Assembly: GCA_022827195.1 (NCBI GenBank)
Contig: JAJDTL010000024.1
Location: forward strand, 62,001 to 126,000
DNA length: 64,000 nt
Direction of reading: 5' to 3'
Source of the DNA: Caldilineaceae bacterium
Lineage (GTDB): Bacteria; Chloroflexota; Anaerolineae; Caldilineales; Caldilineaceae
Position numbers and translations under genes: made by a program. The notes below the pieces were generated by a model that saw nothing but the letters and a program-made list of their open reading frames with translations, had not been told where the DNA came from and did not search any database. Positions 5,718 to 32,447 of the stretch are shown piece by piece (within the stretch, counting starts at the first letter, position 1; each line of letters opens with the position of its first letter).

Positions 5718-5858
5718 TATGGTGCGTCTGCGATCAGGGATTCTCAGACATTTCCAGGTAATAGATCCCTGGTCTTATAAGCTGTTTCCAGCATCAGGCA
5801 GTTCTTCCCGCGTGGCGTGTTTCTGTGGCATTGCGACTCTATTTCAAGGAGGATTCCC

Positions 5859-7301: not shown

Positions 7302-7330
7302 CTGGTACCGGGACGCGCCATGCGGGAAAA

Positions 7331-7377
7331 TCAGACCTTGCCGGAAGCCGCTGACTGGGGTTTCCGGTGAGGTCTGA
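7331..7377 (+). terminator. long hairpin after the solute-binding protein gene
   Basis: Inverted repeat seen directly: TCAGACCT (7331-7338) pairs with AGGTCTGA (7370-7377), and CCGGAA (7341-7346) pairs with TTCCGG (7362-7367). The two bases between the arms can form G-T wobble pairs, giving a stem of about 16-17 bp and a 13-14 base loop. There is no T-run after it. It lies between convergent genes, so it may end transcription from either side or protect the 3' end of the + strand messenger. Confidence 0.55.
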
Positions 7378-7515
7378 AGCATATAAGGAGGCAAACCAAC
7401 GAGAAACAGAATAGGATCGGGGATCTCTCATTCCCAGCCACAGCGGTCAATCGTCGCAGTCGTCCGCCTCGAGTCCCTCCTCAGCTTCTTCTACATCCCC
7501 TCTCCGGCGGCCAAG

Positions 7516-8885: not shown

Positions 8886-11336
8886 CTATCTGGCGGGCAG
8901 GTTCCTGTCTTGCTCTCTTGTTATGATGGAGGGCGAAAACTGAAATGCCCCGTATTTGTGCTCAAAGTGGGCGACCGTAGTCTGTCTGTCCAGCTTGACC
9001 TTCCACTTCCTGGTCCCACCGTCGCCGAAGCCGACCGTCACGCGCAGAACGCGCATCTGTACAAGCTCGGCGGTACAGCCCTCGAACGAAAGGGGTCCCA
9101 TGTCTTCGGTGAGATAGAAGAACAGGGAGTGTTCGGTGGACGCAGGCCCCTCTGACTCCCCCGATACCACACCTTCACCAGGGTCGAAGCGCCAACTGTT
9201 GAGGGCGAAAGAACCGCTGATGTGCCGGTCCGAACCTATGAAGGTGACGTCCTTTTCCTTTTCGGTTGCGAAGAGGACCTGGCAGGTGAAGGGGGGCAGC
9301 GCGATGCTGAACTCTTCTTCCAGTGAACCAAGATATCGCTTTGCCCAGAAATCGAACAGGAGGTAGTCCCCCTCATCGCCGGCGACATCCCGGCGCCTGA
9401 ACGACACCGTTCTTGCCTGCTCCTCGGACGACCAGTTGAACAGGCCGATCACCTTGTGATTGCCTCCCCAAGGATGGGAGACGGGGAGCACCCAAACGCT
9501 GAGTGGATTCTCTTCCGCCATCAAGTCGAGTGGATAACCCCGGCCTGGGTAGACTGGCAGGGCGCGGCTCAGTAGGTCAAAGCGTTCGTCCGTGGTTTTC
9601 TCCAGCGCGCCGCCCACGAAAAAGCTCCAACAGGCTATGGCCTGCAGGGAAATCCACGCCTTTGTCTTTTCAAGAGGCGAGATGATCTGATCAAGGGGCG
9701 ACATTCCAGGTAATCCGAAGGCGCCCGAATCATTTGCGAATGGGATTGCTGCCGCGTCGCAGAATTCCGGATCTATTTGAAACCATTTGCCGTGATAGTA
9801 GTAACGCTGGGCCAACTGATGGAGTAGAATCACCTCCCTTCCGCCGCGAAAGTCCAGGGCTACACGGCCGCCGTCAGTTACGCCGGGGGCCGGCGGAATC
9901 GGGAAATGCGCCGTCAGGAAAACGTCTGGACCGATCTCTTCCTTTATTCGTGTAAACCTCCTTCGAAAGGCCTCGATGATCGTCTGGTCTTGCCGCAGAT
10001 TGTAGGGCGGGTAGCCGAGTCCGGCGAACAGGTAGTCAAACCCCCACTCGTCCAGGAATCTCTTTTTCGCGTGCCGGGCTGAAACATCATCCCATTCCGG
10101 CGGACCGCTCTTGACATGGTTCAGCTCCGTATAGTGAAACGCCGCCTTGAACCCCCGATTGTGGATTTCATCGGTGAAACTTCTGATGCCTTCAGGAAAA
10201 TAGTCGAGGAGCTGGTAGTCTTTTTCGGAGCCCCGAAAGTCCGGGTGTGTAACGTCAATCGTCCTCACTGCGTCCTCGGTCAAGAACGCTCTCCAATCAA
10301 AGTCATCCGGCGCATTCTCCGGCGTGATGCCAACACCGAGCGTGAACAAGATGTAGGTCAGGCCATACTTTTGCAACTTTTCTTCCAGGATGCCGATTAT
10401 GGTTGACAATCGCTCGCTGGTGACTGATCGGGCGTCCGTCGTACGGAAGGGTGGGTGACACGAATAGTCGGCAAACACGCCGGCAACGGGATCAAGCGGC
10501 AGCTTTACCTCCAGGTAATCACGCACATGGTTCGTGTAGCTGTCCAGAGCGGAATGGATCGATTCAGAGCACGCGAGCGCGAACCTGGAATCTATTTTGC
10601 CGCCGGTTTTCAAGAGCAGGGGGTTGATGGGTACATTCTCCGATCGTGGGTCCAGAGCGTGTCTGTATGACTCTTTCCAGGGAAACTGTTTGCCGGTTTC
10701 CTGCAGAGCCGATGCATAGACGCCGACGTCGTTTTCCTGTCGGGAAAAGACAAAGCGAATGAAGGCTGACGGCGAGTGGCCCATGCCGATAGCAAAGCAC
10801 AAGTTTCTTGCGGGGACAGATAGCGCCGTAGACCAGTACGCTTCAATCTGTGCGCCTGGGTCCAGGGCAGTGCTTACAGGTTCCACAGTCGAGGGATACC
10901 AGAGGAATCCGCACGCGCCTGGCCCGTTGTTGAGCACGCGGCACCCGTCAGTCGCGTCCAACCCCTGGAGAAGCGTCCCGTCAACGGCAAAGATGTCCTC
11001 GACCAGGAGGTCTGCCGGGCCGTTGTTGGTAACGGAAAAGGAGATCGCCAGGACAGGCTGGCGATCGTAGACGTCAAGTTGCCAGCGGAAGGAGAGCTCA
11101 AGGTCGTCGTTGACGAATTCGACGACGACGCATTCTCCCGTGCCGGCAGGGTCGGAAAGAGGGATCCTCTCGGCGCTCACAAATCTGCCAAGCACCTTGC
11201 GGCCCCCGGCCAGGTGGAGCCCGACCCTGCTGTCGCTGATGGCGACACGCTCCGCCGTGCGGAGACTCCAGCTATTGCGCGCGGGGTCCAGGCGGAGGGA
11301 AGCCCCACTACCAAAGTTGTAGACTCTTGTATTCAT
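8886..11336 (-). CDS. GH36/clan GH-D-like protein, canonical nucleophile motif not seen
   Basis: 816 residues from ATG 11336, chosen because AAAGG lies at 11346-11350; a GTG at 11345 overlaps that site. Architecture resembles family 36: an N-terminal beta-sandwich (to about 270), a TIM barrel (about 285-600) and a C-terminal beta domain. GKWFQIDPEFCDA, the LEKTKAWISLQAIACWSFFVGG stretch and the following LPVYPGRGYPLD fit the late barrel of clan GH-D. The strand that normally carries the nucleophile (Y-L-K-x-D) reads WGFDYLFAGLGY (431-442), with no Lys or Asp. RVALD (491-495) may correspond to the acid/base region. It is upstream of the GH4 gene in the same direction. Function is uncertain: a divergent alpha-galactosidase-like enzyme or a non-catalytic relative. 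Confidence 0.6.
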   Translation of the reverse strand: MNTRVYNFGSGASLRLDPARNSWSLRTAERVAISDSRVGLHLAGGRKVLGRFVSAERIPLSDPAGTGECVVVEFVNDDLELSFRWQLDVYDRQPVLAISFSVTNNGPADLLVEDIFAVDGTLLQGLDATDGCRVLNNGPGACGFLWYPSTVEPVSTALDPGAQIEAYWSTALSVPARNLCFAIGMGHSPSAFIRFVFSRQENDVGVYASALQETGKQFPWKESYRHALDPRSENVPINPLLLKTGGKIDSRFALACSESIHSALDSYTNHVRDYLEVKLPLDPVAGVFADYSCHPPFRTTDARSVTSERLSTIIGILEEKLQKYGLTYILFTLGVGITPENAPDDFDWRAFLTEDAVRTIDVTHPDFRGSEKDYQLLDYFPEGIRSFTDEIHNRGFKAAFHYTELNHVKSGPPEWDDVSARHAKKRFLDEWGFDYLFAGLGYPPYNLRQDQTIIEAFRRRFTRIKEEIGPDVFLTAHFPIPPAPGVTDGGRVALDFRGGREVILLHQLAQRYYYHGKWFQIDPEFCDAAAIPFANDSGAFGLPGMSPLDQIISPLEKTKAWISLQAIACWSFFVGGALEKTTDERFDLLSRALPVYPGRGYPLDLMAEENPLSVWVLPVSHPWGGNHKVIGLFNWSSEEQARTVSFRRRDVAGDEGDYLLFDFWAKRYLGSLEEEFSIALPPFTCQVLFATEKEKDVTFIGSDRHISGSFALNSWRFDPGEGVVSGESEGPASTEHSLFFYLTEDMGPLSFEGCTAELVQMRVLRVTVGFGDGGTRKWKVKLDRQTTVAHFEHKYGAFQFSPSIITREQDRNLPAR

Positions 11337-11504
11337 TTTGGGCACCTTTGTTTGAAGTTCGGCCTTTAAGTCAGGTCATGACCAGGGCCTGCGACGAAGC
11401 GCCGTTGAGCCAAGAAGAGGAGTCGTTGGGAGGCACGGGATGAAGAAGCCAAAGTCCGGAAATCGGGTATGAGGGAGCTTCGTCACGTGATTAGAGGTTG
11501 TAAG

Positions 11505-12200: not shown

Positions 12201-14135
12201 TCACAGCATGCGACCCACAAGTCCACCTTGCAGGGTCGCCTCCTGAACCGTGCGGGGTACGTTGGCATCGCCGATGGTATGGACCTCGGGCACAATCCCA
12301 CGCAGTTCAAGGGCCAGGCCATTGACGGCCTCGGCCCCGGCGGATACGACAACCGCGTCGATCCCTTGCAGGGCGCGCTCCTCGACAAAGCGGCTGTGCC
12401 GGACCAGAGCGCTCCTTTCATCCCAGGAGACGAGTTCTTGCTCTGCGCTGAACCGGACCCCTCGGTCCTGCAGCCTCGCCAGCATCTCCTCGCGTGTCAT
12501 AGCTTCGATTGCGCTGGCCGCCCGGGCGGCGGGGGTGATGTATTCGACTTCGATCCCGAGAGCTGACAGATAGTCGCTCAGCATCAGGGCGTGCATCGTC
12601 CCTGCGCGATCGACGACCAGTAGTCTCTCGATACCGTCAAGATCGCGATTGAGGGCATCGGAGACAGTCCATGTCTCGCGACCGCCTGGGACCTGGGCGG
12701 TGCGCGGTCTGCAGCCGGTGGCGACGACTACCGCGTCCGGCCCGATTGAAGCGATCGAAGCGGGCGTAGCCTGCGTGGAAAGGCGAATTTCGAACTCGCC
12801 TTTTTGTGCCTGGCGCTGGTAGAACTCAGCGATTCGGCCAAACATTCGGCGCATGGGGCTGGCGGCGGCAAGGAGCACCTGGCCTCCCACCCGGCCGCTC
12901 TTCTCGAACGCGGTCACCTCATGGCCGCGTGCATGGGCAACCAGCGCGGCCTCCATGCCGGCGGGTCCCGCCCCGACAATGACGACCCGTTTTTTCTGCT
13001 GAGCCGGCTTCAGCGCCGCCCAGGTCCGCTCCCGGCCTGTGACGGGGTTGTACACGCACGTCATCTGCTCACTGTCCCCGATGCAGCCTTGGAGGCAGCG
13101 CGTGCAGTAGCGAATGTCTTCAAGCCGGCCTTCCTGGACCTTGCGTGAAAAGTGCGGGTCGGCAATGTGCGACTTGGTCATACAGACGACATCCAACAAG
13201 CCCCCGGCGAGGGCCTCTTCGGCCATCTGGGGGGTGGTGATGCGGCCGGCATGCATGATGGGCAGGGAGGTTGTTTGCCTGATCTGATGCACAAGCGGGA
13301 GCCACTCCCCATCCGGACGGGGCAGGGGGCCGTGGTGCAGGCCGCCGTCTCCTGCCGTGAGGCTGATGTAGTCCGCCAGGCCCATCGACTCCAGCCGGGT
13401 GATCAGCGCTACATAGTCCCCGGTCGTCATCCCGCCTTTTTCCTGGTCGTGGGCCTTTAACCGTATGCCAAGAGGCATATCATCCCCGATGGCATCACGC
13501 ATCGCCTGGAGCGTTTCGACGATGAAACGCATGCGGTTGACAAGCGGTCCCCCGTATTCGTCCGTGCGCCGGTTCCAGATCGGGCTGAGAAACTGGGCAT
13601 GCATGTTGCCCTCGTGCGCATGGAGCTCCAGTCCGTCAATGCCTCCTTCCCTCGCCCGGGCGGCCGCTTCGCCGAATTTGCCGGCGAGGGCGCGAAGTTC
13701 CGCCGCGCTTCGATCAGGGCAGCGCGGCCGGCGGCGTGCGCGCGGAAGGAGTTGGGCCTGCATTCCAAGACGGATGCGATCGGTTGCGGGTGAAGGGAGA
13801 GGGTCACCCGTATGAATGAGTTGGGCAAAGACTTTAGCGCCGTGACGGCGACCCGCCTCGACCAGCATCCGGTAGCGGGGGATGATAGCCTCTGAGGTAT
13901 TCTGTATCCAATCCGGCCCGGCGTCATAGGTCGGGCCGGTGGCACCGATGACGAATAGGCCTATGCCGCCTTTGGCGCGTTCCTCGATGTAGGCCGCAAA
14001 CTCCTCGTTGGGCAGTCCGTCCGTGACCCACCAGCCGGCGAAATGGGCGCTGACCGCGATTCGGTTGCGGAGGGTTACCTTTTTCAGCGTGAAGGGGCGA
14101 AACAGGCGGGGGAATACCCGATGTTGCGTTGGCAC
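12201..14135 (-). CDS. NADH:flavin oxidoreductase / 2,4-dienoyl-CoA reductase-like Fe-S flavoprotein
   Basis: 644 residues, the size of the multidomain Old Yellow Enzyme family (FadH and trimethylamine dehydrogenase relatives). Residues 1-340 form the FMN TIM barrel (NRIAVSAHFAGW near the start, QFLSPIWNRRTDEYGG at 181-196). Cys344, 347, 351 and 360 make a 4Fe-4S site with a shorter last spacing (8 residues) than FadH (11). Residues 383 onward carry a dinucleotide-binding fold with GAGPAG (388-393). The start is GTG at 14135 with AAGGG upstream. It lies 178 bp after the dehydrogenase at 14314, so membership of that operon is possible but not certain. The substrate is unknown; reduction of an activated C=C bond or demethylation are the known family chemistries. 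Confidence 0.85.
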   Translation of the reverse strand: MPTQHRVFPRLFRPFTLKKVTLRNRIAVSAHFAGWWVTDGLPNEEFAAYIEERAKGGIGLFVIGATGPTYDAGPDWIQNTSEAIIPRYRMLVEAGRRHGAKVFAQLIHTGDPLPSPATDRIRLGMQAQLLPRARRRPRCPDRSAAELRALAGKFGEAAARAREGGIDGLELHAHEGNMHAQFLSPIWNRRTDEYGGPLVNRMRFIVETLQAMRDAIGDDMPLGIRLKAHDQEKGGMTTGDYVALITRLESMGLADYISLTAGDGGLHHGPLPRPDGEWLPLVHQIRQTTSLPIMHAGRITTPQMAEEALAGGLLDVVCMTKSHIADPHFSRKVQEGRLEDIRYCTRCLQGCIGDSEQMTCVYNPVTGRERTWAALKPAQQKKRVVIVGAGPAGMEAALVAHARGHEVTAFEKSGRVGGQVLLAAASPMRRMFGRIAEFYQRQAQKGEFEIRLSTQATPASIASIGPDAVVVATGCRPRTAQVPGGRETWTVSDALNRDLDGIERLLVVDRAGTMHALMLSDYLSALGIEVEYITPAARAASAIEAMTREEMLARLQDRGVRFSAEQELVSWDERSALVRHSRFVEERALQGIDAVVVSAGAEAVNGLALELRGIVPEVHTIGDANVPRTVQEATLQGGLVGRML

Positions 14136-14313: not shown

Positions 14314-15417
14314 TCAGTGTGTTGGTCTTACGGCTACACGGATATGTTTCCCAGAGGACGCAACCCGAACGGCCTCGTTGATTTCCGCCAGAGGGAAAAC
14401 GCTGCCGACCAATTCCCGATAAGGAAGCCTGGCGCAATTCTGTTCCAGGAACCGCAATGCTTGGCCCAAATGCTCGGGGCGGTAATTGTGAATGCCCTTG
14501 ATAGTAAGACACTTCCGTGTCACCTGGTTGCCTTCTATCCCCAAATCGCTACCCGGCGATACGAGACCTGCGATCAGATATCGCCCGCCAATGCGTAACG
14601 CCTCAACCGCCTGTGCAACAGCAACACTGGCGCCACAGGCTTCAAAGGCGACGTCAACACCATGCTCGCCGCTCTGGTCCCGAATCTGCGTCAGGATCTC
14701 TTCGTCGCTTGATGCCGCGATGTCGATGCAAAAGTCGGCCCCAAAGCCGGAGGCCAATTCCAGTCGCTTCGGGTTGACGTCGGTGACAATGATCTGGCGT
14801 GCGCCGGCCTCAGCCAGAGCTGCGACGAGGTTCAGGCCCATGGAACCGGCGCCTTGAATGAGCACCGTTTCTCCTTGTTCGAACCCGATTGTTTCGATCG
14901 CGTTCATAGCGGTTGACAGGGCGCAGTTCGCCGGCGTTGCTATCTCATCGGAGACAGAACTGGGAACTCTGAATATGGCCGTCCCTGGAAAGAGATAGAT
15001 ATACTCGGCGTATCCGCCTGTCAATCCTGGCGGCTCATTGCATCCAGTGTGACCGTATTTATGCAGGTGTGTGCATTTCTGCGGCAGGCCCTTGCGGCAA
15101 TAGAAACAGGCGGCGCAGGATGCCATGATCGACCACGACACTCTGTCGCCCACCCTCAGCCTCTGGCCGAATCCGTCAGCCTCCAATCCATCGCCCAGCG
15201 CTGCGATGTCACCGATTATTTCGTGGCCGAGAATGATCGGAGTCGGCTCTTGGCGCTTTCCGCTGATGGTATGCAGGTCGGAGCCACAGATTGTGCTCAT
15301 TCTTATCCTGCAGACAGCGGCGCCCGGTTCGATAGATTCGGGAAGCGCAAACTGCTGAATCCTCAACGGTTCGCCCGGCCCCGAAAACACTGCTGCACGG
15401 CACGATTCTTCGTTCAT
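14314..15417 (-). CDS. zinc-binding alcohol dehydrogenase, phosphonate-catabolism-associated type
   Basis: 367 residues, medium-chain dehydrogenase/reductase. Catalytic zinc residues Cys44 and His65-Glu66 (GHE) are present, as are the four structural-zinc cysteines 101, 104, 107 and 115. The NAD-binding fold has GAGSMG near residue 195. The stretch GGYAEYIYL...GTAIFRVPSS...ATPANCALSTAMNA resembles the dehydrogenase clade (TIGR03366) repeatedly found beside phosphonate catabolism genes. Here it follows phosphonoacetaldehyde hydrolase by 8 bp, which fits. Likely role: oxidation or reduction of an alcohol or aldehyde formed in the phosphonate pathway, perhaps acetaldehyde. The exact substrate is inferred. 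Confidence 0.85.
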   Translation of the reverse strand: MNEESCRAAVFSGPGEPLRIQQFALPESIEPGAAVCRIRMSTICGSDLHTISGKRQEPTPIILGHEIIGDIAALGDGLEADGFGQRLRVGDRVSWSIMASCAACFYCRKGLPQKCTHLHKYGHTGCNEPPGLTGGYAEYIYLFPGTAIFRVPSSVSDEIATPANCALSTAMNAIETIGFEQGETVLIQGAGSMGLNLVAALAEAGARQIIVTDVNPKRLELASGFGADFCIDIAASSDEEILTQIRDQSGEHGVDVAFEACGASVAVAQAVEALRIGGRYLIAGLVSPGSDLGIEGNQVTRKCLTIKGIHNYRPEHLGQALRFLEQNCARLPYRELVGSVFPLAEINEAVRVASSGKHIRVAVRPTH

Positions 15418-15425
15418 GTTTCAGC

Positions 15426-16259
15426 CTATGGCCTGTCACCCATCTTCAGTCTCAACTCGATTTCGTCAATAACGGCCGGCACTTCCGCTATCGACTCAAC
15501 GACGTAGTGCGCGCCCACTGCGGCCAGACCCTCGGCCGCCCGGGCGACTCTGCGCTCCACCTCTTCCTCAGGCAGCGCGGCCAACTCCCTCTCGTTCAGT
15601 CCCACTTCATTGCCCGTCTTGGAGAGTCCAATCGTCCACGTACCGGCGTTCAGCCCCTCGGCAACACCCGGCTTGGTGTCGTCGACCTTAACGACCGCTG
15701 CCGGAGGAAAGACTCGCGCCTGCTGCATGTTGCTCAAGACCATCCAGGGTTCCGGGCGGCCGGCGGGGACATCGCTGGCACAGGCATTCGCATCAGGTGT
15801 GTAGCCCTGCTTTTTCGCTTCGCGCAGGTTGATCTCCATGGCGGCGGTGAAGTAGCCGCTGGTGGAGCCTATTGTTATTTGGCGGCTTCGCAGATCGTTG
15901 GTTGCTTCAACTGTTCCCGGGATCAGTTGGCTATAGTCGGCAATCGAAGCCACCTGCAACGGTACGAAGTCCTTTTCGTACATCTCCTGCACGTCCGCTT
16001 CCGTGCAATCCCTGCCATGCGTCTCTTTCCAAAGGTCGGCAACCAGATCCTGCCGCGAAATCGCTCGGATGTGATCCGCTTTCTTGAGTCCCATAGGCAG
16101 CCGGGCCTGTTCCATCGAGATCTCCACCCCGCGCTGCCTGAATACCTCAATGAACACGACCGCAGGGGCGTAGCAGCCGTAGTCCAATGTCGTTCCAGCC
16201 CAGTCAAAAATGACCATCTTGACCGGACCTCGGTAGGACCTTTGAAAAACGAATTCCAT
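15426..16259 (-). CDS. phnX: phosphonoacetaldehyde hydrolase
   Basis: 277 residues from ATG 16259, chosen because GGAGGA sits 8 bases upstream and length then matches the family (about 270). Haloacid dehalogenase superfamily: motif I FDWAGTT with nucleophile Asp19, the cap-domain segment PMGLKKADHIRA with Lys60 in the place of the Schiff-base lysine, motif GSTSGYF, and KVDDTKPGV near the C-terminus. Known reaction: phosphonoacetaldehyde plus water gives acetaldehyde and phosphate, cleaving a C-P bond. The start lies 5 bp past the stop of the SDR gene and the dehydrogenase follows by 8 bp, so it is within an operon. No recognisable PhnW transaminase is in the window; the DegT enzyme upstream could provide that step, as a guess. 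Confidence 0.92.
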   Translation of the reverse strand: MEFVFQRSYRGPVKMVIFDWAGTTLDYGCYAPAVVFIEVFRQRGVEISMEQARLPMGLKKADHIRAISRQDLVADLWKETHGRDCTEADVQEMYEKDFVPLQVASIADYSQLIPGTVEATNDLRSRQITIGSTSGYFTAAMEINLREAKKQGYTPDANACASDVPAGRPEPWMVLSNMQQARVFPPAAVVKVDDTKPGVAEGLNAGTWTIGLSKTGNEVGLNERELAALPEEEVERRVARAAEGLAAVGAHYVVESIAEVPAVIDEIELRLKMGDRP

Positions 16260-16263
16260 GCGT

Positions 16264-17187
16264 CTATCCTCCATGCTTTCTTGTGTTTTGCAGGTACGCG
16301 CAATCCCGCCACGAGTAGCGGGGGGCATAGCCCAGCTCCCGGGCGGCCTTGCCATGCGAGACCAGTGTAGCGTAACCGCTGACGTTCCCTCGAACCGGCA
16401 CCTCCGGGAAGAAGCGTTCGAGCAGCGCCGAACTCTCTAACCGGGAGAAGCTGTCCGCGGCGCTGAGAAAGTAGGTGCCATGCTCGACGACCTCGTTGTC
16501 TAACGCAAGACGGACGGCTGCGGCCACGTCTCGGGCATCGACGTAAACCCAGAAGGACCACTCTCCAGCGGCTGGGCGATCGAGTGCCGCGAGAAATCTG
16601 CCCCAAAGCTCCTCCACGGTGGCGGCGCCCCAGTCTTCTGAGGGCACGACGAGGCTGGCGCCCGGCCGGTCCAGATACTTGCCGCCGGCAATCCGCAGAC
16701 AGATTGTGCGCAGGCCGTGCGCCGCGGTGTAGCTCCGGCAGGTCTGTTCGTTGAGACACTTGCTGAGGGCGTAGGCATCGCGCGGCCGGCAGGGATGCTC
16801 CTCATCCAGGGGCAGGTAGTCGGGAGGGATATGGTGCCGGCGCCAATATCCTGTTGCCGCGTTGGACGAGGCCAGGACCACCTGCCCCACCCCCTCCTGT
16901 ACGGCGGCTTCCAGGACATGGATGGTACCCATTACATTGACCTGCAGCACTTGCTCAGGCGGAGATCTGCGCAGATTCGGGATGGCTGCCAGATGCACAA
17001 TGGCGTCCTTGCCGCGGCAGGCTGCCTTCAGCTGCGCTATTTCGAGCACGTCCCCCGCAAAGAGGCCGACGCCCTCCAGAGCCTGCGGACTGCGACTGAA
17101 AACCGTCACCCGATGGTGGTGGGCCAGCAGTTCGCGCACGACGTAGCCGCCAATCATGCCGCTGCCGCCAGTGACCAGCACGTCCAT
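16264..17187 (-). CDS. NAD-dependent epimerase/dehydratase (extended SDR)
   Basis: 307 residues. N-terminal nucleotide-binding motif GGSGMIGG (7-14) and the active-site pair Tyr139-x3-Lys143 (YALSK) with NAATGYW near 109-115. This is the layout of sugar nucleotide epimerases and related dehydratases. It sits 14 bp after the dehydrogenase at 17202 and is immediately followed by phnX; its TAG stop lies inside the phnX ribosome-binding region. The sugar or hydroxy-acid substrate is unknown. Its place in the operon suggests it modifies the carbon part of a phosphonate or an amino sugar. Confidence 0.85.
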   Translation of the reverse strand: MDVLVTGGSGMIGGYVVRELLAHHHRVTVFSRSPQALEGVGLFAGDVLEIAQLKAACRGKDAIVHLAAIPNLRRSPPEQVLQVNVMGTIHVLEAAVQEGVGQVVLASSNAATGYWRRHHIPPDYLPLDEEHPCRPRDAYALSKCLNEQTCRSYTAAHGLRTICLRIAGGKYLDRPGASLVVPSEDWGAATVEELWGRFLAALDRPAAGEWSFWVYVDARDVAAAVRLALDNEVVEHGTYFLSAADSFSRLESSALLERFFPEVPVRGNVSGYATLVSHGKAARELGYAPRYSWRDCAYLQNTRKHGG

Positions 17188-17201
17188 TCCGTTTTCTCAA
17201 C

Positions 17202-18200
17202 TCAGCGAGTCAGGACGATCTTCATCACGCGATCCGGACGGCCGACCACCTCGTCAACTGCCTGCTGCAGCTCCGCCAACGGCCGCGTCGTGATCAGGTT
17301 GTCCAGCCTGAGCCAACCCCGCGCCGCCCAATCCAACCCGATCTGCGCAAACCGGCTATTTCGTTCCCGTCCTCTCGCCGTAGAATCGCGCCAGTTGTTC
17401 AGGAGGCGAAAGGCTTTGTGGTGCCAGGGCCACAGGTCCAGTGTCTCAGGCCAGGCGTGGACGCCGAAGCTATAGATTGTGCCGCCCGGTCGCACCAGCT
17501 CGGCCGCGGTGTCAAGGGAGCCCGGTGCGCCGGCGCTCTCGATCACCAGGTCGAATCCCTGCTCCTGGGTCAACTCTTCGAGCGCTTCGGACACGCCGCC
17601 TTCCCGGATGTTGTAGACCTGGTCCGCCCCCAGCTGTTTGGCGATCTCCAGGCGGCTGGGAAGGAGGTCGAACATGGCCACTTTCCACGCGCCCTGCAAC
17701 CGAATCGACTGCGCCAGAAGTTGTCCGAAGAAACCGGCGCCGACCACCGCCACCAGGTCGGCCGGGCGAATACCCGAAGACAAAGTTGCCTTCACGACCA
17801 TCGCCAGCGGTTCGCACAGCCCCGTGGCAAGGGAGAGATTCTCGGGGACATGAAATACAGCATCCTCATGCTGGACATATCGGTCGGCGAACTGCATGCG
17901 GATGTCAGGGCCGGGCGCGCCGCCGAGGCTGCTGACGCGGTCTCCGAGGCGAAAGCGGGTTACCCCGGGCCCCGCCCCGACCACAACGCCACCCGGTTCG
18001 TGACCGATGTAATCGGTGGGCGGCGTGATGGCTGTGTGCTTGCCGGTGATGACGAGCAGGTCACTGGTGCAAAGTCCGACAGCACGCGTCTCGATCAGTA
18101 CCTCGCGCGGGCCGGGCTGCGGCAGGGGCCGTTGACGGAACTCGATGCTGTTGGGAGCTACACACACCGCGTATCGTGTGTGGCCGGCCTGTGTTGGCAT
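17202..18200 (-). CDS. zinc-type medium-chain dehydrogenase (sorbitol/threonine dehydrogenase-like)
   Basis: 332 residues from ATG 18200 (a GTG directly before it is an alternative). Catalytic-zinc residues Cys and Glu are in VGLCTSDLL and IGHEPGG. The cofactor-binding motif is GAGFFGQL. The usual four-cysteine structural zinc loop is missing: the corresponding region reads SSLGGAPGPDIRMQF. No ribosome site is visible, and the stop of the DegT gene is 15 bp upstream, so expression is probably by coupling. Substrate unknown; likely a polyol or 2-hydroxy compound. Confidence 0.85.
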   Translation of the reverse strand: MPTQAGHTRYAVCVAPNSIEFRQRPLPQPGPREVLIETRAVGLCTSDLLVITGKHTAITPPTDYIGHEPGGVVVGAGPGVTRFRLGDRVSSLGGAPGPDIRMQFADRYVQHEDAVFHVPENLSLATGLCEPLAMVVKATLSSGIRPADLVAVVGAGFFGQLLAQSIRLQGAWKVAMFDLLPSRLEIAKQLGADQVYNIREGGVSEALEELTQEQGFDLVIESAGAPGSLDTAAELVRPGGTIYSFGVHAWPETLDLWPWHHKAFRLLNNWRDSTARGRERNSRFAQIGLDWAARGWLRLDNLITTRPLAELQQAVDEVVGRPDRVMKIVLTR

Positions 18201-18215
18201 CACAATTTTTTCGCG

Positions 18216-19433
18216 CTACGCCCTGCACTCTTGCATTCCATCGGTCAGGGCCTCGATGACGGTGTCAATCTCCCAATCCTCCATCGCAGCGCAGATGGGA
18301 AGATTGATCTGCTGCTCGAACCACACCTTCTCGCAGATGGGGCTTTCGCCGAACCCGTGGCCCTCAGCCCGGTGCTCCGCGCTGAGGTGAAGCGGCCAGA
18401 AGCGCAAAATGATCTGCACGCCTCGCTCATTATCGAGATACTTGGCGAACCTGTCCCGATCGACGCCGGAATCGGGTTCAACAAAGCAGGTGTACAGATG
18501 CCAGGCGCTCTTGTCCCCCTCGGCGACCTTGACCGGTCGTAGACCGGGGATTTCAGCGATGGCCTCCGTGTAAAGCTGCGCCACGCGCGCCCGCGTCGCG
18601 ATAAAGCCGTCCAACTTGCGCAGCTGAACGCGTCCGACGGCGGCCTGCACGGCGCTCAGACGGTAGTGCGTGCCCAATTCCTCGATGCCCGCATAGTCTT
18701 GCGTCCAGCTGATGCCTGCATGATCGAAGACCTTGGAGTCCGGCTTGGCATAGGGACCAATGCGGTCTGTGCCCCGGTCGACCGTCTCGCCGATTACCCC
18801 CATTGTGCGCAGCGCACCTGCCTCGGCCGCCCACTCGTCGTTGTTTGTTGTCAGCATGCCGCCCTCGCCTAGGGTGGTCATGTTCTTGAGAGAGTGAAAT
18901 GAAAAGCAGCACAGATCGCCGGCGCCGATCTTCTGCCCCCTGTATTCCGTGCCCGCGGCGTGCGCACAATCCTCGACAACGGGAATGTCATGCGCGGCGG
19001 CTATCTTTCTGATGGGGTCCATGTCGGCTGGATTGCCGCCGTGATGAACGAGATATATCGCCTTGGTGCGTTCATTTATTTTGCCCTCAATGGAGTCCGG
19101 GGCGATGTTGAGCGTTTTTGGGTCGATGTCAGCGAAGCGCACGCGAACGCCGCGCGCGATGAGGGCCAATGTCGTCGATTGAAAGCTTTGGGGTGTGCAA
19201 ACGACCTCATCGCCCGGCCCGAGCCGCAGCACCTGCGCACAGAGGTGGAGGGCGGCGGTACACGAACTCACCGAGATGGCGTGCCTGGCCTGACAGTAGG
19301 CGCGAAAGTCCTCTTCAAACGCGGTACGCTCGGGACCCCATGCCAAGCTCTGGCCGGAGGAGATCACGCGTCGGATGGCCTCGATTTCCTCTTCCCCCAA
19401 GATGGCGCCAACGCTGTGCTCCACAACTTTCAT
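18216..19433 (-). CDS. DegT/DnrJ/EryC1/StrS-family PLP aminotransferase
   Basis: 405 residues. Family features: SSCTAALHLC near 56-65 for phosphate binding, VVEDCAHAAG with Asp155 pairing with the PLP ring nitrogen, and SFHSLKNMTTLGEGG with the Schiff-base Lys183. These enzymes usually aminate keto sugars on nucleotides. It is the first gene of the - strand operon that runs through two dehydrogenases to phnX. A strong ribosome site (AGGGAGGG) precedes the ATG. In this setting it might transfer the amino group of an aminophosphonate, replacing PhnW, or act on an amino sugar. That is speculation from neighbours. Confidence 0.88.
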   Translation of the reverse strand: MKVVEHSVGAILGEEEIEAIRRVISSGQSLAWGPERTAFEEDFRAYCQARHAISVSSCTAALHLCAQVLRLGPGDEVVCTPQSFQSTTLALIARGVRVRFADIDPKTLNIAPDSIEGKINERTKAIYLVHHGGNPADMDPIRKIAAAHDIPVVEDCAHAAGTEYRGQKIGAGDLCCFSFHSLKNMTTLGEGGMLTTNNDEWAAEAGALRTMGVIGETVDRGTDRIGPYAKPDSKVFDHAGISWTQDYAGIEELGTHYRLSAVQAAVGRVQLRKLDGFIATRARVAQLYTEAIAEIPGLRPVKVAEGDKSAWHLYTCFVEPDSGVDRDRFAKYLDNERGVQIILRFWPLHLSAEHRAEGHGFGESPICEKVWFEQQINLPICAAMEDWEIDTVIEALTDGMQECRA

Positions 19434-20201: not shown

Positions 20202-21188
20202 CTACCTCTGCGTCGCGCGAATATATTCTTGGTCTACGGCATCCATGGTTTGTTGGAAACTCTTTTCTTCGAACAGCCGAACCAGCGGTACGTCTTCATC
20301 AGATGGGTGGATTCCACCGTTCGTGGTCGGGTCCACCATGGCCCCAAGCAGCTGCCGGCGTACCGCGCTGCACCTTGCCAGCAGTTCAGGCGAATTCTCA
20401 GTCCGGTCCCCCAGCCGCTGCCACACCGGCGTGTAGACATACCACAAGTTTTTGCGCCGCACCTGCGATCTGTTGGGCGGGACACAGTGCCACAGCGCGT
20501 TGTGAAACAGGACTGCATCGCCGGCTCTGACCGTCACCTGTCGCGCGCCCGGAACGCCGGCGTCGATCTGCTCGACCTGTTTGAATCTCGTATATGAGGT
20601 GATCGTCAAAGCGTGCTCCAGGCCCTGCGACAACTTGGGAAAGCCATTACGATGGCTGCCGGGCACGACCGTAAAGTTGCCCATGTCGGGCCTGTCCACA
20701 TCGGTCAGAAAGAAGCCAATCCGAGCCCATTGCAACGGCGTCAGCCGGTCAACGCTGGCGAAATAGTACGGTTTGGAGCCGTCCTTGTGCCAGCGGTTGC
20801 CCGGCGTCGGACTCGGCGGGCGGACCATCGCCTCCGACCAGCACAGCTGAATCGCCGCGCCAATCAGCTCGCAAACGATGCCCAGATGGCTGGGATGGTC
20901 GATCAGGTTCAGAAAGGCCTCGCACGGTTCATGGCGCAGTATGGTGCCGTTACTTCCCGGTTCGGCTTGGAACAGGTCCTCAGCCGCGGCGTTGATGATG
21001 TTGACAGCGTGGAACTGCGTGTTGGGATCGCGGCCCAGGCGCTGTGACGCCTCATCCAGACGGTCTACCTCGGCGACCAGCTCCCCTACCTCCTCTGCTG
21101 ACAGAGCGTTCTTGATAACCAGATAGCCATCTTCATCCCACTGCTGCCTCTGTTCAGGCGACATGCGCTGGAATGTCATCGTATCCAT
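20202..21188 (-). CDS. phytanoyl-CoA dioxygenase (PhyH) family protein
   Basis: 328 residues from ATG 21188, preceded by AAGGGAG; an upstream ATG at 21251 adds 21 residues with no ribosome site, so the start is uncertain. Fe(II)/2-oxoglutarate oxygenase core: GYLVIKNALSAEEVGELV at the N-terminus, the iron ligands in WHKDG, the distal His in LWHCV, and the 2-oxoglutarate-binding Arg just after it (RRKNLWYVYTP). Known family members hydroxylate fatty acyl-CoA, ectoine, phosphonates and natural products. The substrate is unknown. It lies downstream of two TIM-barrel isomerases on the same strand. Confidence 0.88.
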   Translation of the reverse strand: MDTMTFQRMSPEQRQQWDEDGYLVIKNALSAEEVGELVAEVDRLDEASQRLGRDPNTQFHAVNIINAAAEDLFQAEPGSNGTILRHEPCEAFLNLIDHPSHLGIVCELIGAAIQLCWSEAMVRPPSPTPGNRWHKDGSKPYYFASVDRLTPLQWARIGFFLTDVDRPDMGNFTVVPGSHRNGFPKLSQGLEHALTITSYTRFKQVEQIDAGVPGARQVTVRAGDAVLFHNALWHCVPPNRSQVRRKNLWYVYTPVWQRLGDRTENSPELLARCSAVRRQLLGAMVDPTTNGGIHPSDEDVPLVRLFEEKSFQQTMDAVDQEYIRATQR

Positions 21189-21310
21189 CCGCTCCCTTGA
21201 CCTTTGAGCATTCAGGTCAGGTACCTCAACCGGCTGCAAAGGTTCCGACATTCAATGCCAGCATCATTCAATTCTAGTCTTCGGCAGGATAGCCGTTTCG
21301 ATGGCCGCAC

Positions 21311-22210
21311 CTATCCGAGACCAATCTGCCGGAAGTATTCACGTGTCCGCTTGGCGATAGGCAACGGTCTGTCGAACGGTGTCGGGTACATGTCCTGCTC
21401 CACAATCGCAAAGCTGTCGTAGTTCAACTCGGCCAACAGGTCGCGCAGCGCCGGAAAGTCGACGGCGCCCCGCCACGGCTCGCAGAAGTAGCCCTGTATG
21501 GTCGTGATTGCGATCGGGGCGCCCTGGCGCGCTACCTCGCGTTGCATTGCCGGATCGACACTCTTGAAATGAAGGTACTCAAGCCTCTCATGGTGTTTTC
21601 GAATGAAGGCCACCGGATCGCTGCCGTGGTAGGCGTGATGGCCGGTGTCCAGCGCCAGACCAATCAGCGCCGGGTCCGTTTCGTCCAGGAGCTTCTCGAT
21701 CTGCTCCTCGTACTCGACGTGCGAGTCGGCGTGAGGATGGAAGACGGTGCGCAGGCCGAAATTCTGCTTGGCGAGGAGCGCGATGGCGTGACTCGTGTCG
21801 ATCAGCGTACGCCAGGATTCCGCGTCGAGTGTGGGCGCCGCTATAGGTTCGCCGCTGTGCTGATCGGTATAGAGGTCATCGATCAGAACGAGATATTTGG
21901 CCCCCAGGCCGGCAAGCAACGCACCCAGGTCGAGAACCGCTTGCTCGATCTCAGGCCACGCCTCGCGTTCTTCCAGCACCGGCATGAAGGCTGCGCCGGT
22001 CAATTTGAGATTGCGTTGGCCCAGTTCGCGCGCCAGCCTGCTGCGGTCGGTTGGAAGATAGCCGTATGGGCCGAGCTCCGTCCACGTATAGCCGGCCTCG
22101 GCAACCTCGTCAAGATAGCGTGTCCAGGGCGTCTGTTTGGGGTCGCTGGCGAACGAGATGCCCCAAGAGGCGGGCGCGCTTCCAAGTTTGACATTCATCT
22201 TCATTCCCAT
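21311..22210 (-). CDS. TIM-barrel sugar isomerase/epimerase, IolE-like
   Basis: 299 residues, AP-endonuclease-2/xylose-isomerase-like TIM barrel. Metal-site segments are visible: TVFHPHADSHVE, LALDTGHHAYHG, LHFKSVDP and IVEQDMYP. SAPASWGI at the start and the DTGHH segment recall inosose dehydratase (IolE), which dehydrates 2-keto-myo-inositol. Start codon choice among ATG 22210, 22204 and 22198 is uncertain. It follows another isomerase (22367) with a 156-bp gap. An inositol role is possible, but no other inositol genes are in the window. Confidence 0.82.
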   Translation of the reverse strand: MGMKMNVKLGSAPASWGISFASDPKQTPWTRYLDEVAEAGYTWTELGPYGYLPTDRSRLARELGQRNLKLTGAAFMPVLEEREAWPEIEQAVLDLGALLAGLGAKYLVLIDDLYTDQHSGEPIAAPTLDAESWRTLIDTSHAIALLAKQNFGLRTVFHPHADSHVEYEEQIEKLLDETDPALIGLALDTGHHAYHGSDPVAFIRKHHERLEYLHFKSVDPAMQREVARQGAPIAITTIQGYFCEPWRGAVDFPALRDLLAELNYDSFAIVEQDMYPTPFDRPLPIAKRTREYFRQIGLG

Positions 22211-22366
22211 CTGGCCCGACGGTCTATCTGCTGATAGGAAACAAGACGTTCGACCTTGCGCCAGCGCGAGACATGACCTTCAGGGTTACAACTGTGCCAC
22301 AAAGCCGTTGAATCAAATAGGACCTCGGTCGGAATTGCGGCACAGGTGCAGTTGCCAAGCCACCCC

Positions 22367-23227
22367 TTATGCTTCGAGGGTTTGCATCAGTTCCAGCATA
22401 TATTCGCGGCCCTGGTAAAGGGCCCGTTCCCATTCATCTGCGTGCGAGTGCAATTCGATACTCAGATAGTGCTCATAGTTCGCTTCTTTGAGTACTTCCA
22501 AAACAGAACGCAGGTCTATGTCCCCTTCTCCCGGAATCTCGTGATGGTGCACCTTTCCCTTTATGTCTGCGATGTGGATGTGCCTGGTATACGGCAACGC
22601 ATCTGCGACTCGCTGCAACAGATCGTCCTCACAACACTGAACATGGGTAATATCCATATTCAGTCTGAATCGGGGAGAACTGATCTCCTCGATAATGGGA
22701 ACTGCTTGAGTCGTCGTTTCTATGAAGCAGCGGCCGCCGCCCATCGATTCCGGCAGCTGCGCCTCCGGCTCGAGTACCAGGACCGCCTCGCCTGAATTTT
22801 GGAGACAGGCGCGTACTCCTTCCGTCAACATCTCCGTCGCTTCTTCAGCCGAAACGCCCGGCTGCCGGATGCCGCTCACGAACTGCACGACCGGAATGGA
22901 GAGGTCGTCAGCCATCTCCAGCGCGGCGCTGATGAGGTCAATTCTTTTCTCGCGTGCTTTCCGGTCGGGCGAAATCAGCGAGGGCTCGAAGGGATCGTCG
23001 CCGAGCAAAAGCGGCCCACCGGAAGACAGAGCCGCCGGCTTGAGCGGCAGCCTCGCAAACAGGTCTTTCAGCTCGTCCAACTCCTTTCGCGTGACATCGA
23101 AAGGGTGCAGGTGGCCGGCGAGATAGGCCAGGTCTATCCCCTCGTATCCAGCTTTAGCGGTCTCTTCGATCGCTCTGTCGAGGGGGAGATTCCGCAAACA
23201 TTGGGTGTTAAAGCTCAACGGAAACAC
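22367..23227 (-). CDS. TIM-barrel sugar phosphate isomerase/epimerase
   Basis: 286 residues from GTG 23227, which has AGGAGG about 6 bases upstream; a TTG at 23242 lies within that site and is rejected. Likely metal ligands lie in VLEPEAQ, NMDITHVQ, HIHIADIKGK and SIELHSH, spaced as in the xylose-isomerase-like family. It probably interconverts a ketose and an epimer or aldose. It lies about 45 bp after the M20 peptidase gene. Substrate unknown. Confidence 0.85.
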   Translation of the reverse strand: MFPLSFNTQCLRNLPLDRAIEETAKAGYEGIDLAYLAGHLHPFDVTRKELDELKDLFARLPLKPAALSSGGPLLLGDDPFEPSLISPDRKAREKRIDLISAALEMADDLSIPVVQFVSGIRQPGVSAEEATEMLTEGVRACLQNSGEAVLVLEPEAQLPESMGGGRCFIETTTQAVPIIEEISSPRFRLNMDITHVQCCEDDLLQRVADALPYTRHIHIADIKGKVHHHEIPGEGDIDLRSVLEVLKEANYEHYLSIELHSHADEWERALYQGREYMLELMQTLEA

Positions 23228-23272
23228 GGGTATCCTCCTCAACTTCCATTAGGAGTTCTGCGCGGCAAGTCG

Positions 23273-24670
23273 TCACAGGCAGAGTCTCGTGATCAGCTCG
23301 TAGAGGATGTGCAGGGCGCGGTTGATGCTGTAGAGGGCGACGCGTTCGTTGGTGCAGTGGCCGCCGCTGTTTCGCCCGGCGGGCGTCATGCTGATCGAGG
23401 GGAAGAAGCCGTATACGGCCCGGTCCGGCGCGCGCAGAAAGCGCACGTCGGTGGCGCCGCCCAGAAGCAAAGGAACGACAACTGTGCCGGGCGAGAGGTC
23501 CTCGTAGAGGTCGCGGATGGCGCGAAAGAGGGCGGTGTCGCTGGATGATTCCCAGGCAAAGAAGCTCTCCTCGACTTCGCCGATCTCAAGATCATCGATC
23601 CCGTCGAGGCGGGCGCGTATCAGGTCGAGCACGTTTTCGATGCTCTCTCCTGGCAGGAAGCGGACGTTGCAGTGGAGCTTCACTTCGGTCGGGTAGGCGT
23701 GCTCGCTCTCACCGCCCTGCACCATCGTCGGCACGATTGAGTTGTAGAGCGACGGTTCGAACCAGCCGGCCAGGCCCGGGGAGGAGCGGCGGAGGGCGGC
23801 CATGCCCCCTTCGCGTGTGTCGTCCTTTAGCAGGGCGTAGAGAGCATTCTGGACGGGCGCGGTCTGGCCGGGCGCAAGCGTCTCGATCGAGAGAGCGACG
23901 GTCTCCGTCAGGGTCGATGAGAGCCGCATCTCTTCCAGCCGGGCGAGGACCTGTCCCAGCCTGCTCATGGCGCCGTTGGGGATGATGCGGAGGGAGTGGC
24001 CGCCCGGGGCGCGCAGGGTGATGGTCAGCTCGAAGGCGCCCTTCTCGGCCGTGGCGACAGCGCAATATTTGCCCTGTGGCGCAGGCACCTCACCGCCGCC
24101 GCCTTCGCCGAGGACGTACTCGGCATCGACTTCGTCACGGCGGTTTTCGGCCAGCCAGCCCATCCCGTTCTGCCCGCCGGTCTCTTCGTCGGCACAGGCT
24201 GCCAGGACGAGGTCGCGTTTGAGATTGAGCCCGCGGCGTTTGGCCAGGACGAGCATCATGGCCTGCGTGGCGACGCGGTGTTTGCAGTCCATGGCGCCGC
24301 GTCCCCACACGAAGCCGTCCCTGAGCGTAGCCGAGAAGGGCTCGACATCCCAGCCGGCGGGCGTGGCGGGCACGACGTCGAGGTGGGAGACGAGGAGCAG
24401 GGGACGGCCGCCGCTGCCGTCGCCGGGCACGCGCGCCAGCACACTGCTGCGATGGGGCTGGGGCCCGGCGACCTCAGATTCGATGCCCTCGCTGACGAGA
24501 ATATCGTGGAGGAACTGGGCGGCGGGGCGCTCGTTGCCGGGGGGATTGGAGGTGTCGAAGCGCACCAGGTTTTGCAGCCAGCCGGTTGTCTCCTCGAGGA
24601 CATCCTGCCAGTGGGCCGGGGCCCAGTCGTCGGTGTTTCCGACCGTTACGCCGTGGTCCTGGTTGGCCAT
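23273..24670 (-). CDS. M20-family metallopeptidase (ArgE/DapE/carboxypeptidase-like)
   Basis: 465 residues. Two-zinc amidohydrolase motifs: SHLDVVP with His96 and Asp98, GRGAMDCK with bridging Asp128, and DEETGG with catalytic Glu162 and ligand Glu163. The dimerisation domain contains RAPGGHSLRIIPNGA. GAGGAG-type ribosome site (GAGGAG) precedes the ATG. No signal peptide, so cytoplasmic. These enzymes release an acyl or amino acid group from N-acyl amino acids or dipeptides. It sits between an isomerase and an aldo/keto reductase and not far from a peptide-type ABC importer, so a dipeptide substrate is plausible. Confidence 0.9.
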   Translation of the reverse strand: MANQDHGVTVGNTDDWAPAHWQDVLEETTGWLQNLVRFDTSNPPGNERPAAQFLHDILVSEGIESEVAGPQPHRSSVLARVPGDGSGGRPLLLVSHLDVVPATPAGWDVEPFSATLRDGFVWGRGAMDCKHRVATQAMMLVLAKRRGLNLKRDLVLAACADEETGGQNGMGWLAENRRDEVDAEYVLGEGGGGEVPAPQGKYCAVATAEKGAFELTITLRAPGGHSLRIIPNGAMSRLGQVLARLEEMRLSSTLTETVALSIETLAPGQTAPVQNALYALLKDDTREGGMAALRRSSPGLAGWFEPSLYNSIVPTMVQGGESEHAYPTEVKLHCNVRFLPGESIENVLDLIRARLDGIDDLEIGEVEESFFAWESSSDTALFRAIRDLYEDLSPGTVVVPLLLGGATDVRFLRAPDRAVYGFFPSISMTPAGRNSGGHCTNERVALYSINRALHILYELITRLCL

Positions 24671-24718
24671 GCCGTTTTCTCCTCAGTTTGCTGGCAGATT
24701 GCGCCGCTTCTGTCGCGA

Positions 24719-25753
24719 TCAGTCGCGATGGCCGCCGTAAAAGGGGCTATCCCGGTAACAGAAAAGGTCCCAGAAGTTCATCGGGTAGGGGGCGGGCAGT
24801 TTGCTGGCCTCGTTCAATTGCTGCATCTCCTCGTCGGAGAGGCACAGGTCGAGCGCGGCCATGTTCGCGTCGTACTGCTGCTGGTTTCTGGCTCCGATGA
24901 GGACAACGTCGCAGGTCCCCGATTGCAGCAGCCAGCGAATGGCAACCGTGGGAATCGTCGCTCCGTGACGGCCGGCGATGGCTTCCACCAGGTCGAGGGT
25001 ATTCCAGTTGCGCTCGACGGCCAGGCTCTTCCAGGAGCTGCTCTCGGTGTCGATGTTCGCTGCCGTGCGCGATTCGGGGGGAGGTCCTTCGTCGCCGCGG
25101 CTGTAGCGGCCGGTGAGAAAACCCTGGGCGAGCGCGCCCCAGGCGATGATGGAGACGTTCTGATCGCGGCAGGCGGGAATGACGGCGAACTCGGCTACGC
25201 GGTCGGCCAGCGTGTACCAGATCTGGTTGGATACGAGCGGTGTGAGGCCGAACTGGCGGGCATACATATTGGCCTTGACCACCTGCCAGCCGCCCCAGTT
25301 GCTGACGCCGGCGTAGCGGATTTTGCCGGCGCGCACGAAGTCGTCGAGGACGCGCATCGTCTCTTCGATCGGTGTGTAAGGGTCCTGCACGTGGCACTGG
25401 TAGAGATCGATGTAGTCGGTGCCGAGGCGTCTGAGACTGTCCTCGACATTGGTTGTCAGATACGCGCGCGAGAGGCCGAATGCGTTGGGCCGCATCGGTT
25501 TTTCCACCAGCCAGGCGCCCTTTGAGCCGACGACGAAGCGGTCGCGGCGGCCGCGGATGATTCTGCCCACGGAGAGCTCGGAGAGACCGCCGCCGTAGAT
25601 GTTGGAGGTGTCGAGGAAGTTGCCGCCGGCGTCCAGGTAGATGTCGGCCATGTCGCGGCTTTCCTGGTCGGTCATCCAGGTGCCGAAGGGGATGGCCCCG
25701 AGGGCGAGGCGCGAAACCTCCAGGCCTGAGTGCCCCAGATTGCAGTATTCCAC
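24719..25753 (-). CDS. aldo/keto reductase
   Basis: 344 residues; GTG start at 25753 with AGGAGG 6-7 bases upstream. Standard barrel with the catalytic tetrad: Asp in FLDTSNIYG, Tyr in NIYGG, Lys in VGSKGAW and His in LYQCHVQ. NADP(H)-dependent reduction of sugar aldehydes or ketones is usual for the group. It follows the GH127-like gene by about 50 bp and precedes the M20 peptidase by about 48 bp, so it is probably co-transcribed. Confidence 0.9.
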   Translation of the reverse strand: MEYCNLGHSGLEVSRLALGAIPFGTWMTDQESRDMADIYLDAGGNFLDTSNIYGGGLSELSVGRIIRGRRDRFVVGSKGAWLVEKPMRPNAFGLSRAYLTTNVEDSLRRLGTDYIDLYQCHVQDPYTPIEETMRVLDDFVRAGKIRYAGVSNWGGWQVVKANMYARQFGLTPLVSNQIWYTLADRVAEFAVIPACRDQNVSIIAWGALAQGFLTGRYSRGDEGPPPESRTAANIDTESSSWKSLAVERNWNTLDLVEAIAGRHGATIPTVAIRWLLQSGTCDVVLIGARNQQQYDANMAALDLCLSDEEMQQLNEASKLPAPYPMNFWDLFCYRDSPFYGGHRD

Positions 25754-28766: not shown

Positions 28767-28774
28767 GGCAGCAG

Positions 28775-29827: not shown

Positions 29828-30006
29828 GGTTGCAGTGGCTAGTGGTCAGTGGCCAGCGACGGGCCTACGTCAGATTCCTCACTTGTTATTTCTTGCGAGG
29901 CAGAGTCGTCGGGATTCCGTATCCTTTGAGTGTTTGTTTGACGGACTCCGACGGCCGGGGACGACTTGCCTCTGGCGACTAACTTGCCCTTGACTCGAAG
30001 AATGGC
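29828..30006. repeat. intergenic stretch with TGGTCAGTGG-type repeat words
   Basis: The part nearest the OppD start (about 29830-29860) reads GCAGTGGCTAGTGGTCAGTGGCCAGCG, built from degenerate GTGG(T/C)(C/A)A words. The same kind of words occurs at 36985-37030. The rest holds no gene that I can support. Confidence 0.35.
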
Positions 30007-30126: not shown

Positions 30127-30190
30127 CTTTACGGTGGTCTGACTATAGAGAAAGTCTTTTTCATTGCAACGTCGATTCCCACCTGACACA

Positions 30191-31309: not shown

Positions 31310-31381
31310 GATTCACCTGTTATGCGCGGCACGCACGGGTGGGTGGGAACCGGCGCCCCGGCACACGCCACTGATTTCCGG

Positions 31382-32374: not shown

Positions 32375-32447
32375 TGGGACTCCGGCGGCTAGAGGCCGGC
32401 AGCCAGGGGGAACTCCCCTGACCACCGGCTCTGCGGTTCAGAACAGA

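Follow-up and report, generated by a model that had tools for sequence, protein, structure and literature searches.

A phosphonoacetaldehyde hydrolase operon without PhnW in a Caldilineaceae bacterium and a candidate 2-hydroxyethylphosphonate dehydrogenase

A stretch of 64,000 nucleotides from a Caldilineaceae bacterium of the phylum Chloroflexota (GenBank assembly GCA_022827195.1, contig JAJDTL010000024.1, positions 62,001 to 126,000), here called the window, harbours five closely packed genes including phnX, the gene for phosphonoacetaldehyde hydrolase; PhnW was found neither among them nor elsewhere in the genome. We tentatively prefer, at a probability of about 40%, the reading that a zinc-type dehydrogenase encoded last in the operon (MDR2) oxidises 2-hydroxyethylphosphonate (HEP), that PhnX cleaves the product, and that the other three enzymes (DegT, MDR1 and SDR) handle sugar, with DegT being no substitute for PhnW. 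MDR2 would then be the most likely source of phosphonoacetaldehyde, PhnX would split this compound into acetaldehyde and phosphate, and DegT, MDR1 and SDR would probably process a sugar that carries the phosphonate or is imported with it. The substrates of all the enzymes and the tie between sugar and phosphonate are what we infer from the observed genes, residues and arrangement. The genes of the operon, in their order, are as follows.

18216..19433, minus strand: DegT/DnrJ/EryC1/StrS aminotransferase, 405 amino acids (aa), first gene of the operon (PF01041; lysine binding pyridoxal phosphate, PLP, kept in FSFHSLKN)
17202..18203, minus strand: MDR1, medium-chain dehydrogenase, 333 aa, GTG start (family match)
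16264..17187, minus strand: SDR, extended short-chain dehydrogenase/epimerase, 307 aa (PF01370)
15426..16259, minus strand: phnX, phosphonoacetaldehyde hydrolase, 277 aa (TIGR01422 and catalytic residues)
14314..15417, minus strand: MDR2, zinc-type alcohol dehydrogenase, 367 aa, candidate 2-hydroxyethylphosphonate dehydrogenase (TIGR03366, HpnZ_proposed)

The operon and its phosphonoacetaldehyde hydrolase

The five open reading frames (ORFs) extend from 19433 to 14314 and are separated, in the order given, by 12, 14, 4 and 8 bp, the last being the distance from phnX to MDR2. A previous sequence-only reading had described them as packed on one strand with gaps of 5-15 bp; strand and tightness were upheld, and the gap sizes are corrected here. 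The start of phnX was placed at the ATG at 16259, which follows GGAGGAT, and the longest ORF begins at 16355. From the tight spacing alone, co-transcription of the five genes would be expected. Scans for consensus promoters (3 vs a mean of 1.9 in shuffled sequences, sd 1.4) and consensus terminators (10 vs a mean of 6.2, sd 2.3) barely exceeded the shuffles.

Ten proteins of the window were scanned against the NCBIfam families. PhnX passed TIGR01422 with 325.4 bits (cut-off 220) and reached only 70.6 bits on the PhnX-like model TIGR03351 (cut-off 218.9). Its nearest solved chains are phosphonoacetaldehyde hydrolases (2iof and others), which we take to be those of Bacillus cereus, and the lysine mutated to arginine in 2ioh, presumably the Schiff-base lysine, is kept. 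Residues D19, C29, M56, K60, H63, Y136, R168 and D194 match the phosphonatase catalytic set. Six of them, in their usual roles the catalytic Asp, the lysine of the Schiff base, Met, His, Arg and a second Asp, were identical throughout (35/35) in an alignment of 35 rows, made up of the window, 33 loci of the phylum and one plasmid; the Tyr was kept in the window and in 31 of the 35 rows overall, and the Cys position varied. Family and residues support a phosphonate-catabolic function, and PhnX is predicted to hydrolyse phosphonoacetaldehyde to acetaldehyde and phosphate.

The window PhnX is the only one over the cut-off in its genome, and none was over the cut-off in any of the remaining 16 genomes of the genus. 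In the PhnX tree it weakly joined (support 83/93) the PhnX of f64, another family of the phylum, and not those of its own family. The best plasmid match was 50.5% identical.

Possible sources of phosphonoacetaldehyde

MDR2 narrowly passed TIGR03366, the model for phosphonate-associated alcohol dehydrogenases (346.9 bits, cut-off 328.1). The sequence-only reading had recognised a clear PhnX and a phosphonate-type dehydrogenase, and both are borne out by these scores. MDR2 was the only protein over this cut-off in 400 genomes of the phylum, where ten others reached 286-310 bits, and its best plasmid match was 38.7% identical. Dehydrogenases of TIGR03366 are presumably accompanied by an oxidoreductase of TIGR03364; unlike such systems, the genome had no TIGR03364 protein over the cut-off (best 57.8 bits vs 285.1) and the neighbour of MDR2 is a true PhnX, not one of the TIGR03351 type. 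TIGR03366 is not mentioned in the literature searched.

The reaction proposed for MDR2 would interconvert HEP and phosphonoacetaldehyde, as do the phosphonoacetaldehyde reductases of the PhpC/Phn_Fe-ADH type, which we take to belong to an iron-type family with no relation to the zinc-type MDR2. A pair analogous to phnX and MDR2 was found in genome G081 (locus L049, 7053-8981), where PhnX is followed directly by an iron-type alcohol dehydrogenase whose best model was TIGR03405 (Phn_Fe-ADH) with 227 bits, under the cut-off of 423.7; the best PhnW score in this genome was 158.6 bits, also under the cut-off. We count this pair in favour of an HEP route in the window, and it is possibly another route of that type. 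The available parts of one paper state that HEP occurs as polysaccharide esters in marine organic matter and that phpC is sometimes located within 2-aminoethylphosphonate catabolic operons (PMC9381506). Oxidation of HEP would directly yield phosphonoacetaldehyde, and in the literature searched, as far as its available parts go, a HEP dehydrogenase feeding the PhnX pathway was raised only once, for a different enzyme and as a role judged possible yet 'less likely' (PMC12366243).

A source elsewhere was sought in the genome itself, which is 97% complete with a contamination of 5.3%. The best match to the PhnW model TIGR03301 was 160 bits against a cut-off of 360.8, which extends to the whole genome the earlier remark that PhnW is missing. 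Eight class V aminotransferase loci, of 19 matches, were compared with four PhnWs of the same class: identity along long stretches was 24-31%, as opposed to 61-71% between the four PhnWs. There was no match in the genome to PhnJ of the C-P lyase pathway, for which the sequence-only reading had proposed a search, and the phosphoenolpyruvate mutase model reached 111 bits (cut-off 319.55). Neither PbfA nor TIGR03364 was present among the ten scanned window proteins, with PbfA, PhnA and PhnY not searched genome-wide, and no 2-aminoethylphosphonate transporter was recognised by eye next to the operon. In its full catalytic set and compact operon the system resembles the PhnW-PhnX pathway for 2-aminoethylphosphonate, from which it differs in that neither PhnW, in the operon or the genome, nor such a transporter nearby was found.

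The presence of PhnX without PhnW turned out to be common in the phylum. Pooling 11 PhnX-positive genomes among 100 relatives (own genome included) with 23 new ones of the 25 found in 400 phylum genomes gave 34 genomes. In sixteen of these a PhnW-type gene was located no more than about 200 bp from PhnX; nine of these genes exceeded the TIGR03301 cut-off, five scored 298-315 bits, one was truncated by the contig end and one had a split frame. The other 18, the own genome included, had no PhnW over the cut-off or beside PhnX. Other feeder-type genes were located beside PhnX in five of the 18, namely TIGR03364 directly before PhnX (n = 3), PbfA and TIGR03364 after it (n = 1) and the iron-type alcohol dehydrogenase of G081 directly after it (n = 1). 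The TIGR03364 flavin adenine dinucleotide (FAD) oxidoreductases of these loci (L196, L200, L201 and L203) scored 328-406 bits, and the PbfA of G147 (L203) scored 623 bits (cut-off 525). No feeder was recognised in the remaining 13, again including the own genome, with ORFs read by eye and family scans made for the window and two genes of locus L186 only. Fifty plasmid records contained a PhnX match; among six examined, three had an annotated PhnW and two a TIGR03364 gene beside phnX, and one was unannotated. On the plasmids of Pararhizobium qamdonense and Rhizobium tumorigenes phnX comes immediately after TIGR03364, as it does in three f91 loci.

These clusters bear on a rival reading, in which the phosphonoacetaldehyde is made by a recognised enzyme, such as a PbfA-type lyase, encoded at another place in the genome, and MDR2 just reduces acetaldehyde. 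Such enzymes do co-occur with PhnX in the phylum, as in G147, and PbfA was searched in the own genome among the window proteins only. The operon shares with the PbfA- or FAD-enzyme-fed clusters (PbfB/C/D; TIGR03364) the presence of PhnX without PhnW, but it has neither TIGR03364 nor a class III enzyme. In addition, neither TIGR03364 nor PhnW was over the cut-off in the genome, and in the loci examined such enzymes adjoin PhnX, whereas none was among the ten window proteins. We regard this alternative as unlikely, though it deserves some weight.

Two further arrangements were noticed around PhnX in other genomes. In L186 (6984-10462), PhnX lies directly after genes for HMG-CoA synthase, a thiolase-domain protein and a small DUF35-like protein, the last identified by eye, and that genome had no PhnW match. 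In five f64 loci (L194 at 5842-7443, L195, L197, L199 and L202) the frame immediately ahead of phnX is 533-669 aa long and includes a PhnW-like domain; in L194 this domain occupies the C-terminal residues 167-518 of 533, which suggests a fusion with an N-terminal domain.

The arrangement DegT-MDR1-SDR-phnX-MDR2 itself is unusual and was not seen elsewhere in the genomes and plasmids searched. By tblastn, the 33 other PhnX loci, 3.9-19.9 kb long with five shorter than 10 kb and several cut by a contig end, contained no DegT or SDR match (for DegT at E 1e-3). The sole MDR match was in L050, a locus that breaks off at the contig end next to an aminotransferase-like fragment, and was 24% identical to MDR1 and 26% to MDR2.

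The sugar-type genes and their surroundings

DegT passed the Pfam family PF01041 by a wide margin (330.2 bits, cut-off 19.8) and remained under every NCBIfam equivalog cut-off, the best being PseC (268.8 of 423.5), followed by PRK11658 (235.5 of 631), PRK11706 (201 of 375) and wecE (166.2 of 434.85). Among solved structures it is closest to ArnB and other sugar aminotransferases, and its PLP lysine aligns with that of ArnB. By sequence, DegT looks like a sugar aminotransferase of the PseC/ArnB type. A search of a genome collection (84,980 species) gave 356 relatives, of which the best 80 were 32-41% identical to it (locus lengths 3.5-17.2 kb, 18 of 80 under 10 kb); the best relative in the 400 phylum genomes was 42% identical. 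In a tree of 91 rows the window DegT was located on a long branch as sister to six proteins (support 99/95, or 100/98 once four long rows were omitted) from Bacteroidota, Bacillota, Lentisphaerota (two), Actinomycetota and one unassigned bacterium. The neighbours of these sisters, unannotated ORFs read by eye, are mostly of carbohydrate type: a pectinase-like gene, esterases and a Gfo/Idh/MocA oxidoreductase in L075, glucosamine-6-phosphate-deaminase-like genes and Gfo/Idh/MocA in L101, and TIM-barrel and ROK genes in L077. DegT is thus like the ArnB/PseC aminotransferases in family and PLP lysine, and unlike them in its scores under all equivalog cut-offs, its long branch and the mostly carbohydrate-type loci of its relatives.

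The sequence-only reading had placed DegT in the role of PhnW, converting 2-aminoethylphosphonate to phosphonoacetaldehyde for PhnX, with MDR2 then disposing of the acetaldehyde. DegT is indeed the sole PLP enzyme of the five and keeps its lysine, its gene is the first of the operon with a gap of 12 bp, and PhnW was not found in the genome. Against such a role stand the PseC/ArnB-like family and the carbohydrate-type loci of its sisters, a paralogous cluster with PhyH and DegT genes that lacks PhnX (below), and the lack of co-occurrence: no DegT homologue in the 33 other PhnX loci and no PhnX (tblastn, E 1e-5) in 90 DegT loci, 80 of them from the best 80 of the 356 relatives. A comparison of gene order with relatives, proposed by the sequence-only reading, gave no sign of a conserved five-gene operon in either set of loci. 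Since 18 of 34 PhnX-positive genomes do without PhnW, no role of DegT is needed to explain its absence here. A literature search linking DegT with phosphonoacetaldehyde hydrolase or aminoethylphosphonate returned, in the parts of the papers available, soil metagenome work only. Replacement of PhnW by DegT is therefore unlikely, and this version of the pathway as a whole appears very improbable.

The best NCBIfam match of MDR1 was scyllo-inosose 3-dehydrogenase IolM with 108.7 bits, far under the cut-off of 450, and it appears as an orphan, with a best score of 111 bits against 100 relatives, identities of 30-42% among the matches listed and about 31-32% for the best plasmid match. The nearest solved chain to SDR is 4id9, and others include uronate dehydrogenases. 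DegT, MDR1 and SDR all exceed the cut-offs of broad families only; families, neighbours and the paralogous cluster point to enzymes of sugar or cyclitol type. One could imagine that PhnX has joined the sugar operon to act on another beta-oxo phosphonate, for example the phosphonate of a keto-sugar or cyclitol made ready by DegT, MDR1 and SDR, as the tight packing with sugar-type enzymes and the orphan MDR1 might suggest. PhnX has kept the catalytic set of a phosphonoacetaldehyde hydrolase, however, and its family score is far over the cut-off, and we give this idea little credence.

The setting is a PhnX-type phosphonate operon within a carbohydrate-catabolism island, with the following genes around the operon.

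12201..14135, minus strand: Old-Yellow-Enzyme-like flavoprotein, 178 bp downstream of MDR2 (TIGR03997, 482 bits, cut-off 793)
20202..21251, minus strand: PhyH-type dioxygenase, 768 bp upstream of degT (conserved with the flanking genes)
21311..25753, minus strand: flanking block of an IolE-like gene, a xylose-isomerase-like TIM barrel, an M20 peptidase and an aldo/keto reductase

The flavoprotein had been suggested as part of the same pathway; no specific link of it to phosphonates was found, and its membership in the operon is doubtful. The PhyH-type gene probably belongs to the flanking block, because a sister species (G012) and the paralogous cluster both keep it together with the flanking genes. 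The paralogous cluster is located on contig C30 of the same genome (L226 and L227, 160000-192000) and contains PhyH, IolE-like and TIM-barrel genes with 80-81% DNA identity to those beside the operon, and a second DegT, 32% identical to that of the window. This second DegT adjoins an aldolase-like gene and a gene with distant similarity to inositol dehydrogenase (81.5 bits, cut-off 355).

G012 retains part of the M20 gene, the TIM barrel, IolE and PhyH at 86-91% DNA identity, with IolE and the TIM barrel fragmented. It also retains (L224, 13072-13526) the degT leader, identical at 298 of 401 positions (74%), and the opening 54 bp of the gene itself (53/54), the homology ending at window position 19380 within degT. 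Since leader and start are kept, degT probably stood behind PhyH before the two species split, and G012 may have lost or displaced the remainder, unless its assembly is in error. The possibility that the whole operon was recently acquired as a single cassette was considered and is not shown, G012 retaining the start of degT. The synteny with G012 and G004 speaks for the contig of the operon being a genuine part of its genome.

Elsewhere in the island, two nearby and very similar epimerase-like SDR genes of 263 aa (36054-36845 and 37347-38138) are apparently duplicated, and two proteins (25805-27682, 625 aa; 8886-11345, 819 aa) matched no NCBIfam family at E 1e-20. An Opp-type ABC system was read by eye at 27714-34532; in G004, a genome with no PhnX over the cut-off, it accompanies the flanking block.

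Weight of the evidence and meaning for PhnX pathways

Several observations weigh against HEP oxidation by MDR2 with a sugar role for DegT. Sequence by itself fixes no substrate for any of the five enzymes, and the acetaldehyde that PhnX releases could equally well be reduced by MDR2. The model TIGR03366 describes a hypothetical equivalog, and MDR2 exceeds its cut-off by only 19 bits. Six plasmid stretches were inspected, around the MDR2 matches H2, H3, H6, H8 and H17 and the PhnX match H61; three of the six have no listed genes, and the three annotated surroundings of MDR2 relatives (all under 40% identity) were varied and without phosphonate genes (3/3). Because the sole MDR2 match in the 33 other PhnX loci is the 26% identical one of L050, the pairing of MDR2 with PhnX rests on one genome. 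On the side of DegT, its tree position is unsure owing to the long branch, and the carbohydrate reading of its six relatives depends on unannotated ORFs read by eye; in L076 the DegT has a gene resembling ketobutyrate ligase and a threonine-dehydrogenase-like MDR among its neighbours, and L078 and L079 give no clear type. The earlier alternative of a hydroxyphosphonate oxidised by an SDR or MDR enzyme is retained here, with MDR2 as the enzyme in place of SDR or MDR1.

A self-contained route would result if DegT, MDR1 and SDR dismantled a phosphonate-bearing sugar or cyclitol, or if DegT transaminated 2-aminoethylphosphonate, and thereby supplied PhnX with phosphonoacetaldehyde. We consider this distinctly unlikely; if true, the five genes would be a new entry to the hydrolytic phosphonate pathway, coupling glycan breakdown to phosphorus release.

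PhnX is usually taken as a sign of 2-aminoethylphosphonate use via PhnW. With no PhnW recognised in 18 of 34 PhnX-positive genomes, this reading would often misname the substrate, and the operon described here, in which MDR2 is the candidate HEP dehydrogenase, is a concrete case where the substrate of a PhnX pathway may be 2-hydroxyethylphosphonate.

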